A DNA stretch of 32,371 nt from contig RFFP01000028.1 in the NCBI GenBank assembly GCA_003696155.1, positions 1-32,371 of the forward strand, given 5' to 3'. The stretch comes from Acidobacteriota bacterium (GTDB lineage Bacteria; Aquificota; Aquificia; Aquificales; Aquificaceae). The stretch's first letter is position 1; every line of letters begins with the position of its first letter. The position numbers were made by a program, and so were the translations under genes. Shown in pieces: positions 2,879 to 5,514 of the stretch. Under the pieces are notes generated by a model, which saw only the letters and a program-made list of their open reading frames with translations, was not told where the DNA came from and made no database searches.

Positions 2879-3793
2879 TTACCTCTCCCTTGCAGCCACA
2901 CCGGGGAGGAGTTCTTTTAAGATGCCATCCTTGTCAAAGCCTTCAAGGAACTTGAGTACCTCCTCTATCTCCTCATTGGCACGCTTTACCGTCTTTTCCA
3001 CCCCACCAAGCTCTAAAACCAGCTCCCGCAATTCCTCTACCATCCCATTGAAGAAGTATCCCAGCTGATCCTCCCTTAACCTGTCCACCACCGCTATGAG
3101 GGGATAAGTGCATTTACCTTCTGAAAGGTCTAAGCCTGTGGGTTTACCCAGCTTCTCTTCATCACCCGAGTAGTCCAAAGCGTCATCTACAAGCTGAAAG
3201 GCTCTACCTACCCTTGTACCCACCTTATAAAAATCCCAGTAATCTTCCCTTCCTGACATAAGTGCCCCCACTGCCATACAGGCACCGAAGAGAGCGCCCG
3301 TCTTGTAATCCACTATTTTGAAGTAGGTATCCTCGTCTATAATTCTTCCCAAGTTTTTCAGCTCCAAGAGCTGACCCTGGGACATCTTCATCACAGCATC
3401 GCTAAGGACATCTATACACCGAAGGTCTCCATACTTAGCATAAAGGGAAAGAGCTTTGGCATACATATAGTCCCCGGTAAGCACACAAACCTCGTTTCCA
3501 AAAAGTAAGTTGGCACTCTTTTTACCCCTTCTAAACTCTGCCCCATCCACAACGTCGTCATGGAGAAGGGAGGCCACGTGCACGTACTCTATACCAATAG
3601 CTAGGGGTAAAGCCCTCTCTTCATCTCCACCGAGTGTTCTACACGTGAGAAGGGTAAGAAGGGGCCTTATCCTCTTGCCACCAGAGGACAGTATGTAGCT
3701 TCCAACCTCGAGAACATCCTTTACGTCTGGGTCAAGATGCTTGAGGAGCTCCCCCCTCACAAGGGAAAGCTCCCTTTCGTATCCATGTTGCAT
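2879..3793 (-). CDS. long-chain polyprenyl diphosphate synthase
   Basis: This condenses isopentenyl diphosphate units onto an allylic starter to make the all-trans side chain of the respiratory quinone. The 304-residue protein has both aspartate-rich motifs, DDVVD at 79-83 and DDALD at 203-207, plus GGKRIRP at 38-44 for diphosphate binding. Alanine, a small residue, is five positions before the first motif, which allows a long product. Aquificales use C35 methionaquinone-type quinones, so a heptaprenyl synthase is plausible; the exact chain length cannot be read from the sequence. There is no clear Shine-Dalgarno before the ATG at 3793, and an in-frame stop lies just upstream. The gene lies 23 bases behind trxR. 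Confidence 0.9.
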   Translation of the reverse strand: MQHGYERELSLVRGELLKHLDPDVKDVLEVGSYILSSGGKRIRPLLTLLTCRTLGGDEERALPLAIGIEYVHVASLLHDDVVDGAEFRRGKKSANLLFGNEVCVLTGDYMYAKALSLYAKYGDLRCIDVLSDAVMKMSQGQLLELKNLGRIIDEDTYFKIVDYKTGALFGACMAVGALMSGREDYWDFYKVGTRVGRAFQLVDDALDYSGDEEKLGKPTGLDLSEGKCTYPLIAVVDRLREDQLGYFFNGMVEELRELVLELGGVEKTVKRANEEIEEVLKFLEGFDKDGILKELLPGVAARER

Positions 3794-3816: not shown

Positions 3817-4788
3817 TCACCATTGAGCGGTTATCTTTGCCTTCTTATTGAGATACTTGTCCACTGCAAGGGCAGCTTTGACACCGTCTGCTGCCGCTAT
3901 AACCGCCTGCTTTATGTTGGTGCAAAGCACATCCCCAGCGGCAAATACACCCGGCACTGAGGTCATCATCTCCTCATTGACCACTATACAGTGGTCGCTT
4001 GTCATCTCCACCTGATTCATAAGAAAGTCTACCGATGGCTTATTACCACCCAAGAATATGAAGACACCGTCCACGGGCAGAAGTTTTTTCTCCTTTGTGT
4101 TTATGCTCTGTACCCAAAGACCCTCAACTAGGGATGAACCCACTATTTCTATAACCCTATGGTGTAGAAGTATTTCCACCTTAGGGTTAAATTGGATTTC
4201 TGATACCATCTCATGAGGTGCCTTTATCCTACTGGAGGGGACTACCAAATATATCTTACTGGCAAAGCGAGCTATGAACTCTGTCTCTTCAAGGGCGTAG
4301 TCATCCTCTCCCACAACCACCACGGGCCTATCCTTGAAGAAGGCTGCATCACAGACGCCGCAGTAGGAAACACCCTTTCCTAAAAATTCCTCTTCGCCCT
4401 TGTACTTGTTGGTTCTTTCCATTGCCCCAGAGGCTATTATCAGTGTCTTGCCCCTAAACTCCCTACCGTCTATGGTGTAGACCTTTTTAACTTCTCCTAA
4501 AAGGTCTGTGGCTATGACCTTACCCCTCACGAACTCAGCACCGAAAGCCTTTGCATGCTCTCTTATGAGCTTTAGAAGCTCGTAACCCGATATAGGGCCT
4601 CTTATACCCGGGTAATTCTCTATCTGTTGGGTGACACCAAGAGCCCCATCCGCTTCAGCTCTGTAAAGCACTAATGTAGAAAGGTTCGCCCTTGACGTGT
4701 ATATGGCTGCGGATGCACCCGCAGGACCCGCACCTATGATGACCACGTCATAAACCTTGTCCGTTTGAAAATCCAGCGTTAGCTCCAT
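3817..4788 (-). CDS. trxB: thioredoxin reductase-like flavoprotein, atypical NADPH site
   Basis: A 323-residue, low-Mr thioredoxin reductase-type FAD enzyme, expected to pass electrons to thioredoxin or the adjacent peroxiredoxin. Visible are the N-terminal FAD motif VIIGAGPAGASAA (16-28), the redox pair CGVC (143-146) and the C-terminal FAD motif GVFAAGDV (280-287). The central pyridine-nucleotide domain is degenerate. Where the family has GGGNTA/GGGDSA there is GEDDYA (160-165), and the 2'-phosphate-binding HRR motif is replaced by VPSSR (183-187). Use of NADPH is therefore doubtful; NADH or a ferredoxin donor is possible. The ATG at 4788 is chosen over a further upstream start because GGAGG (4796-4800) sits 7 bases before it and the protein then begins like its family. 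Confidence 0.9.
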   Translation of the reverse strand: MELTLDFQTDKVYDVVIIGAGPAGASAAIYTSRANLSTLVLYRAEADGALGVTQQIENYPGIRGPISGYELLKLIREHAKAFGAEFVRGKVIATDLLGEVKKVYTIDGREFRGKTLIIASGAMERTNKYKGEEEFLGKGVSYCGVCDAAFFKDRPVVVVGEDDYALEETEFIARFASKIYLVVPSSRIKAPHEMVSEIQFNPKVEILLHHRVIEIVGSSLVEGLWVQSINTKEKKLLPVDGVFIFLGGNKPSVDFLMNQVEMTSDHCIVVNEEMMTSVPGVFAAGDVLCTNIKQAVIAAADGVKAALAVDKYLNKKAKITAQW

Positions 4789-4815: not shown

Positions 4816-4833
4816 AAGCCCCATGCGGGGCTT
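4816..4833 (-). terminator. hairpin between peroxiredoxin and trxR genes
   Basis: A perfect 7-bp inverted repeat (AAGCCCC / GGGGCTT) with a 4-base loop lies in the short gap after the peroxiredoxin stop. On the - strand it is followed by ATATTTATA, which is A/T-rich but not a clean U-tract. It probably acts as a partial terminator or RNA stability element that sets the ratio of peroxiredoxin to reductase message. Confidence 0.55.
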
Positions 4834-4837
4834 CAAA

Positions 4838-5434
4838 CTAAGGGCTGAGAGCTTCGTAAACTCTACCCACAAGTTCCTGAGATGGCTTTAAAGTTTTCTC
4901 TCCCTCTTTCCATTTGGCAGGGCACGCCTCATCAGGATGGCTCATGAGGTAGGCATTTGCTTTCATCTTTCTTAGAAGCTCCTCCGCATTCCTTCCCACG
5001 TTGTAGAAGTTTATCTCAGAGCCAACAAGTATGCCATCTGGATTGATTATAAAGGTGCCCCTTAAGGCAAGTCCAGTGTTTTCGTCGTATACACCGAAGA
5101 GCCTCGATACCTTTCCCGTTGGGTCCGCACCCATGGGAAACCTTACCTTTTCCAGGAGTTTTTCCCACCTTTGCCATGCCAGATGGGTGTACTTAGTGTC
5201 TGTGGAGACAGATATCACCTCTACTCCCATTCTTTGGAGCTCTTCGTAGTGTTCTGCTAGGTCTGCCAGCTCAGTCGGGCATACAAAGGTAAAGTCTGCG
5301 GGGTAGAAGAAAAGCACCACCCATTTGCGCTCCCTTAGAAGTTCTTCAAGGGAGACCTTCGCAAAGCCAAGGATTTTTGGGTCATAGACCTCCATTTCAA
5401 AGTTTGGAACCCTCTGTCCAACTTTCACTTCCAT
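4838..5434 (-). CDS. 2-Cys peroxiredoxin (AhpC/Prx1 type)
   Basis: A thiol peroxidase that reduces hydrogen peroxide and organic peroxides in the cytoplasm. The 198 residues include the peroxidatic cysteine C52 in FYPADFTFVCPTE, a conserved arginine in GLALRGTFIINPDG (121-134) and the resolving cysteine C171 in the C-terminal DEACPAKW. This makes it a typical 2-Cys enzyme that forms intersubunit disulfides. GGAGGT (5442-5447) is 7 bases before the ATG. The trxR-like gene follows after a hairpin, so the pair forms a peroxide-reduction unit. The promoter at 5467-5494 carries a Fur/PerR-like palindrome, which suggests peroxide or iron control. Confidence 0.95.
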   Translation of the reverse strand: MEVKVGQRVPNFEMEVYDPKILGFAKVSLEELLRERKWVVLFFYPADFTFVCPTELADLAEHYEELQRMGVEVISVSTDTKYTHLAWQRWEKLLEKVRFPMGADPTGKVSRLFGVYDENTGLALRGTFIINPDGILVGSEINFYNVGRNAEELLRKMKANAYLMSHPDEACPAKWKEGEKTLKPSQELVGRVYEALSP

Positions 5435-5466
5435 CTTCCTTACCTCCTAAGTTTTTGTTATTGAAT

Positions 5467-5494
5467 ATTATAAGCTATTGAGAATTATTTGCAA
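5467..5494 (-). promoter_or_regulatory. peroxiredoxin promoter (-35/-10)
   Basis: Read on the - strand, TTGCAA (5489-5494) and a perfect TATAAT (5467-5472) are separated by 16 bases. This is a sigma-70-type promoter placed about 20 bases before the peroxiredoxin ribosome-binding site. Confidence 0.65.
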
Positions 5495-5495
5495 T
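5477..5495. promoter_or_regulatory. Fur/PerR-like operator over the peroxiredoxin promoter
   Basis: A 19-bp imperfect palindrome, ATTGAGAAT-T-ATTTGCAAT, with 7 of 9 arm positions complementary. Its 9-1-9 geometry and A/T-rich arms with GAGAAT/ATT resemble Fur-family boxes, including PerR. It overlaps the -35 and the spacer of the peroxiredoxin promoter, the expected place for a repressor. Inferred from pattern only. Confidence 0.45.
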
Positions 5496-5500
5496 ATGAT

Positions 5501-5514
5501 GTTGGTCAACCAAC
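5501..5514. promoter_or_regulatory. short palindrome in the divergent intergenic region
   Basis: A perfect inverted repeat, GTTGGT-CA-ACCAAC, with 6-bp arms. It lies between the peroxiredoxin promoter and the diguanylate cyclase start. It could be an operator for either gene or chance; no known regulator is recognised. Confidence 0.3.

Follow-up and report, generated by a model that had tools for sequence, protein, structure and literature searches.

The reductase gene and its locus

The window, by which we mean the whole 32,371-nucleotide stretch of DNA that was analysed, carries on its minus strand a gene for a thioredoxin reductase-like flavoprotein, flanked by a peroxiredoxin gene and a polyprenyl diphosphate synthase gene (Table 1). 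Both Pfam and NCBIfam assign the reductase to the pyridine nucleotide-disulfide oxidoreductases of the TrxB kind, and the NCBIfam equivalog model TIGR01292 accepts it with 348.5 bits against a cut-off of 343.45. An earlier note on this DNA had described the gene as a reductase without a normal NADPH site, in which the FAD motifs and the CGVC pair are intact, GEDDYA stands for GGG[ND][ST]A and VPSSR stands for HRR. Its coordinates and motif readings proved correct: GAGPAG and CGVC are read in the translation, and the alignment with canonical relatives agrees on both replacements. The pyrophosphate-binding glycine is lost, and the acidic residues E161, D162 and D163 occupy its place. A third diagnostic feature, absent from the earlier note, is a C-terminal tryptophan, W323, the very last residue of the protein.

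Table 1. Features of the reductase locus in the window
Feature	Position	Strand	Remarks
Polyprenyl diphosphate synthase	2879..3793	-	downstream, co-directional
FFTR-type thioredoxin reductase	3817..4788	-	323 aa; ATG at 4788, stop ends at 3817
C-terminal tail KAKITAQW	3820..3843	-	W323 is the equivalent of the Trp that stacks on FAD in cyanobacterial FFTR
VPSSR replacing HRRxx (2'-phosphate site)	4228..4242	-	residues 183-187
GEDDYA, a degenerate form of the NAD(P)H pyrophosphate motif GxGxxA	4294..4311	-	residues 160-165
Trx-binding GKG...FF around CGVC	4336..4380	-	residues 137-151, intact; definition from PMC9025218
Redox pair CGVC	4351..4362	-	residues 143-146, intact
FAD-binding motif GAGPAG	4717..4734	-	residues 19-24, intact
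G+C hairpin (AAGCCCCGCATGGGGCTT then ATATTTA)	4816..4833	-	between peroxiredoxin and reductase
2-Cys peroxiredoxin (AhpC/Prx type, C52/C171)	4838..5434	-	upstream gene of probable operon
Promoter-like TTGCAA-16-TATAAT	5467..5494	-	upstream of peroxiredoxin

The neighbouring 2-Cys peroxiredoxin, also reported in the earlier note, is of the AhpC type; its gene lies 49 bp upstream of the reductase on the same strand, and the two are probably co-transcribed. A hairpin similar to the one between them occupies the same position in related loci of the window's genus. It is possibly a leaky terminator, which would fit the production of more peroxiredoxin than reductase per transcript. Most loci with the peroxiredoxin-reductase pair conserve the promoter-like element. 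Around it, at window positions 5440-5510, the pattern ATCATATTGCAAAT..TCAAT..TATAATATTCAATAAC is conserved in about 19 loci, and this block could hold an operator besides the promoter. The peroxiredoxin gene stands directly upstream of the FFTR-type gene in 22 of 47 evaluable loci, from several genera, and this adjacency is absent in the other 25, including most lineages in which the FFTR-type protein is the only reductase found. Since the pairing is mostly absent in those lineages, peroxiredoxin reduction is probably one role of the enzyme, and not the founding one. The polyprenyl diphosphate synthase gene neighbours the reductase gene within the window's genus and in one further genus, and this adjacency is not conserved beyond them.

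Conserved motif loss and phylogenetic position

The window's genome (G000) was compared with 135 other genomes of its phylum, which fall into families f1 to f5; we take the phylum to be Aquificota, and f1, f2 and f5 to be Aquificaceae, Hydrogenothermaceae and Desulfurobacteriaceae, respectively. Fifty Aquificota orthologues of the reductase were read in alignment with 27 canonical relatives (ten f5 proteins, six f1 paralogues and eleven Bacillales proteins). None of the 50 orthologues kept either GxGxxA/G or HRR, whereas both motifs were intact in all 27 canonical relatives. At residue 162, where GxGxxA/G has its second glycine, 50/50 orthologues carry D or S; residue 161 is E or D in 50/50, and every one of these proteins has the C-terminal Trp. 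The combination of motif loss and Trp tail recurs in 31/31 cyanobacterial proteins. Because the loss of the NAD(P)H motifs is fixed in all 50 orthologues, it is a family trait and not decay; its conservation down to 60% identity likewise rules out chance or sequencing error.

The earlier note had proposed a phylogenetic comparison with the known reductase types. In a maximum-likelihood tree of 80 proteins, chosen non-exhaustively and drawn with DDOR as the outgroup, the window reductase joins the cyanobacterial FFTRs: these, the Aquificota proteins and a Bacillales group form a single clade (100/100), which persists at 99 after masking of both motif regions and of the tail and pruning of the longest branches. 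Its sister is the group of Mtb-type NADPH enzymes (98/91). Clostridial FFTR, DvTRi, DDOR, an AhpF-like (NADH-type) group and the canonical NADPH types fall outside, the long branches among them, such as CaFFTR, being placed with little certainty.

Membership in four other classes was rejected. CaFFTR, which represents the clostridial enzymes, is placed apart from the clade, although its branch is long. DDOR (Gll2934/Slr0600) also joins outside the clade on a long branch, and for this class the PDB matches are weak. An NADPH-type TrxB would have GxGxxA and HRR where GEDDYA and VPSSR are found, and the AhpF-like NADH type would have glycine 162 and, at the HRR position, an acidic residue in place of V183.

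The best PDB match of the window reductase is the FFTR of Gloeobacter violaceus (5j60/6xtf, 258 bits), followed by Mtb TrxB with 225 bits; the tails align as KITAQW in the window reductase and AIKPDW in Gloeobacter. The first AlphaFold (AF2) monomer model, computed from an alignment made up mostly of NADPH-enzyme rows, has a pLDDT of 88, a closed form like that of the NADPH enzymes and an unresolved tail. Its TM-score is 0.91 to the Mtb enzyme, against a global TM-score of 0.56 to Gloeobacter FFTR; the latter superposition is poor because the model has the closed form. Foldseek ranks Gloeobacter FFTR first for this model. The second model, built from FFTR-type rows only, is of low confidence (pLDDT 65). 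A search for clade-specific basic residues that could form a ferredoxin docking patch found only R88, R211 and K250, too few to build an argument on.

Reductases and ferredoxins in the genome and the phylum

The window also encodes a sulfide:quinone reductase, whose nearest solved homologue is 3hyv, presumably an Aquifex aeolicus protein. The genome to which the window belongs comprises 1.47 Mb in 37 contigs and is 99.99% complete; family and protein searches in it found three TrxB-like proteins. Besides the window's FFTR-type protein there is a canonical TrxB on contig C23 (GGGDSA, HRREQLRA), encoded directly after trxA, so that the second, canonical trxB for which the earlier note had suggested looking is present elsewhere in the genome. 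The third (contig C11, 341-1240) is an AhpF-related reductase without the AhpF N-terminal domains and with a CYTC redox pair; it keeps GGGNSG and has E at the HRR position, a signature of NADH use, and proteins of its type occur in several genera of the window's family. From these signatures the genome seems to hold one NADPH, one NADH and one ferredoxin type of reductase. Since the canonical NADPH enzyme is encoded beside trxA, the FFTR-type protein of this species may act mainly on something other than thioredoxin. Two adjacent [4Fe-4S] ferredoxin genes are found on contig C20. The tandem ferredoxins of Aquifex, which serve the reductive TCA cycle, have E0 values of -440 and -460 mV (PMC10052474), close to the Em of the FAD in Gloeobacter FFTR (-448 mV, lower than that of NADPH; PMC12796991).

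Across the phylum, an FFTR-type orthologue is present in 58 of the 64 genomes of f1 and in 6 of the 7 of f3, and was not found in f2 at the threshold used. The catalytic subunit of FTR (PF02943) occurs in 36 genomes, all of them in f2 (36/41); it was not found in f1, f3, f4 or f5, and no genome of the phylum carries both an FFTR-type gene and FTR. We attach no p-value to this pattern because few evolutionary events underlie it. In the six genomes of genus g2 (of which one consists of two contigs), in G010, in G063 and in six f3 genomes, the FFTR-type protein itself is the only match of a canonical TrxB query. In these genomes neither FTR nor canonical TrxB was found, and TrxA is present in all five of them that were searched; by elimination, therefore, the FFTR-type protein reduces thioredoxin there. 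The f3 genomes contain a small [4Fe-4S] ferredoxin, and a small plant-type [2Fe-2S] ferredoxin was not found in them at the threshold used, which indicates a [4Fe-4S] donor. As Gloeobacter Fdx1 carries a [2Fe-2S] cluster (PMC12796991) and f3 seemingly has the [4Fe-4S] kind only, docking must differ in part.

Three nearly complete f1 genomes (G041, G042 and G056) have canonical TrxB and give no FFTR-type match; the gene may have been lost or may lie in an assembly gap. Two genomes of family f4 (G112 and G113) encode another TrxB variant (loci L071 and L072), with GRGEIA, LLNKK for HRR and no Trp tail, which is the sister of the canonical f5 enzymes.

Electron donor and relation to known systems

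We consider it likely that the window protein is a cyanobacterial-type FFTR conserved in Aquificota, for which homology points to ferredoxin as the probable donor. The earlier note had left the choice between ferredoxin and NADH. Ferredoxin is supported because the protein shares its clade, its lost motifs and its C-terminal Trp with Gloeobacter FFTR, whose structure and kinetics have been characterised, and because of the FTR replacement pattern; the NADH half of the proposal found no support, since NADH types keep GxGxxA/G and are acidic where HRR would stand, and here the glycine is lost. Genome content suggests that the donor is probably a [4Fe-4S] ferredoxin that serves the reductive TCA cycle. 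Each of two reduced low-potential ferredoxins would pass one electron to the FAD, which would sit in an open homodimer, under a cap formed by W323 from the partner subunit. This W323 tail would then swing off, allowing the CGVC disulfide to reach the FAD and be reduced, and the resulting dithiol would in turn reduce thioredoxin. Reduced thioredoxin would feed the 2-Cys peroxiredoxin, probably co-transcribed with the reductase, and other targets. In this scheme the ferredoxin donor, the Trp stacking and the domain motion are modelled on Gloeobacter, where W315 in the tail is stacked against the FAD of the partner subunit (PMC12796991) and the FAD-stacking Trp is a determinant for catalysis (PMC8469568).

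If driven by ferredoxin, the enzyme might still act mainly on the adjacent peroxiredoxin, in the manner of AhpF, and leave thioredoxin to the trxA-trxB pair. The recurrence of the gene pair across several genera with a common conserved promoter-like element, together with the canonical trxA-trxB operon in this genome, would fit such a division of labour. We nevertheless judge it unlikely, since the protein has no extra redox domain of the kind found in AhpF, retains the GKG/FF residues for thioredoxin binding and is encoded away from a peroxiredoxin gene in the 25 loci mentioned above, most of the FFTR-only lineages included. A different low-potential donor, such as flavodoxin, a rubredoxin-like protein, deazaflavin or a hydrogenase subunit, has precedents in Desulfovibrio TRi, which is NAD(P)H-independent and had no known donor, and in Methanocaldococcus DFTR, which uses F420 (PMC5627308). 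DvTRi, however, falls outside the FFTR clade, and low-potential ferredoxins belong to carbon fixation in Aquificota (PMC10052474), so we regard this option as quite improbable.

That the enzyme still uses NADPH or NADH, in a remodelled site, would agree with the overall fold, with the TIGR01292 match and with the resemblance of the AF2 monomer to NADPH enzymes. Against it stand the replacement of the GxGxxA glycine by D or S and the acidic residue beside it, the loss of HRR in all 50 orthologues, the intact GGGNSG and E of the genome's own NADH-type paralogue, and the inability of cyanobacterial FFTR, in the sister clade, to use NADPH (PMC12796991). Taken together these make NAD(P)H use highly improbable, and ferredoxin is the donor that we favour.

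Ferredoxin-driven thioredoxin reduction is usually tied to photosynthesis, and is otherwise known from clostridia. A broader proposal, which we advance tentatively and with some doubt, is that thioredoxin in Aquificota gets its electrons from reductive TCA cycle ferredoxin of the [4Fe-4S] kind, in some lineages by this route alone, and that FFTR and FTR interchange between related families. If true, this would be the chemolithotrophic equivalent of the ferredoxin/thioredoxin system that light drives in phototrophs. The cyanobacterial-type enzyme itself is already known; what is new is its phylum and metabolic setting, the hot-spring Aquificota, where it extends across a deep-branching autotroph family and is sometimes the only reductase gene found. 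This distribution suggests that thiol regulation can be coupled directly to the pool of ferredoxin with which the reductive TCA cycle fixes CO2. Automatic annotation hides the type, as the NCBIfam model for ordinary thioredoxin reductases accepts it. The Aquificota FFTRs are also thermostable proteins for studies of the FFTR mechanism. A search of open-access literature found no description of FFTR in Aquificota, nor any outside phototrophs and clostridia. The texts of PMC12796991, PMC9025218 and PMC10880999 contain no Aquificota terms; the last has a figure in which NTR and non-NTR are scored for 349 bacterial genomes, and a non-NTR mark for Aquificota may stand there.

Among known systems the cyanobacterial enzyme, named DTR first and FFTR later (PMC9025218), is the closest, with about 43-44% identity to the window reductase (5j60, 6xtf); the PDB title of 6xtf names Gloeobacter FFTR in complex with its electron donor. 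The enzyme is the sole thioredoxin reductase of Gloeobacter and Prochlorococcus and receives electrons from ferredoxin (PMC12796991). It and the window reductase have both lost GxGxxA and HRR and kept the FAD motif, CxxC, the thioredoxin-binding residues and the C-terminal Trp. Unlike its cyanobacterial counterpart, the window reductase comes from a non-phototrophic thermophile, has the Trp at the very end and coexists with NADPH- and NADH-type paralogues, and in Aquificota the gene often lies in a peroxiredoxin operon and the ferredoxin is probably [4Fe-4S] instead of [2Fe-2S]. The FFTR of Clostridium acetobutylicum (6gna-6gnd) has the same fold and is likewise NAD(P)H-independent and ferredoxin-dependent, but it forms a separate branch, is shorter and lacks the C-terminal Trp tail; its match scores 123 bits, where that of Gloeobacter reaches 258. 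Canonical TrxB (Mtb 2a87 and the genome's own paralogue on C23) shares the fold, the FAD site, CxxC and the thioredoxin-binding residues, but has GxGxxA and HRR and no Trp tail. FTR would carry out the same predicted overall reaction, from ferredoxin to thioredoxin, with an unrelated [4Fe-4S] protein.

Among the matches listed from other phyla, a TrxB-like protein of a Nitrososphaeria archaeon MAG (L099, 1203-2156), which lies outside the FFTR clade, has GDGNIA, a partial RR and a tail ending in VDWHK; the Trp tail may have evolved more than once. In a sample of 249 Bacillales genomes, about 13 encode a reductase of the FFTR type that lacks the NAD(P)H motifs and is fused to an N-terminal glutaredoxin domain (PF00462, 4.7e-14). 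These fusions (L080, L181-L194; for example L186, 1495-2805) end in ..QY(S), and their genomes also carry canonical TrxB; PMC10880999 states that Bacilli have a single TrxB, an NTR. The Bacillales homologue (for example that of Neobacillus massiliamazoniensis, L080/L186) resembles the window reductase in its clade, its lost NAD(P)H motifs and its aromatic C-terminus, and differs from it in the glutaredoxin domain and in the Tyr that replaces the Trp.
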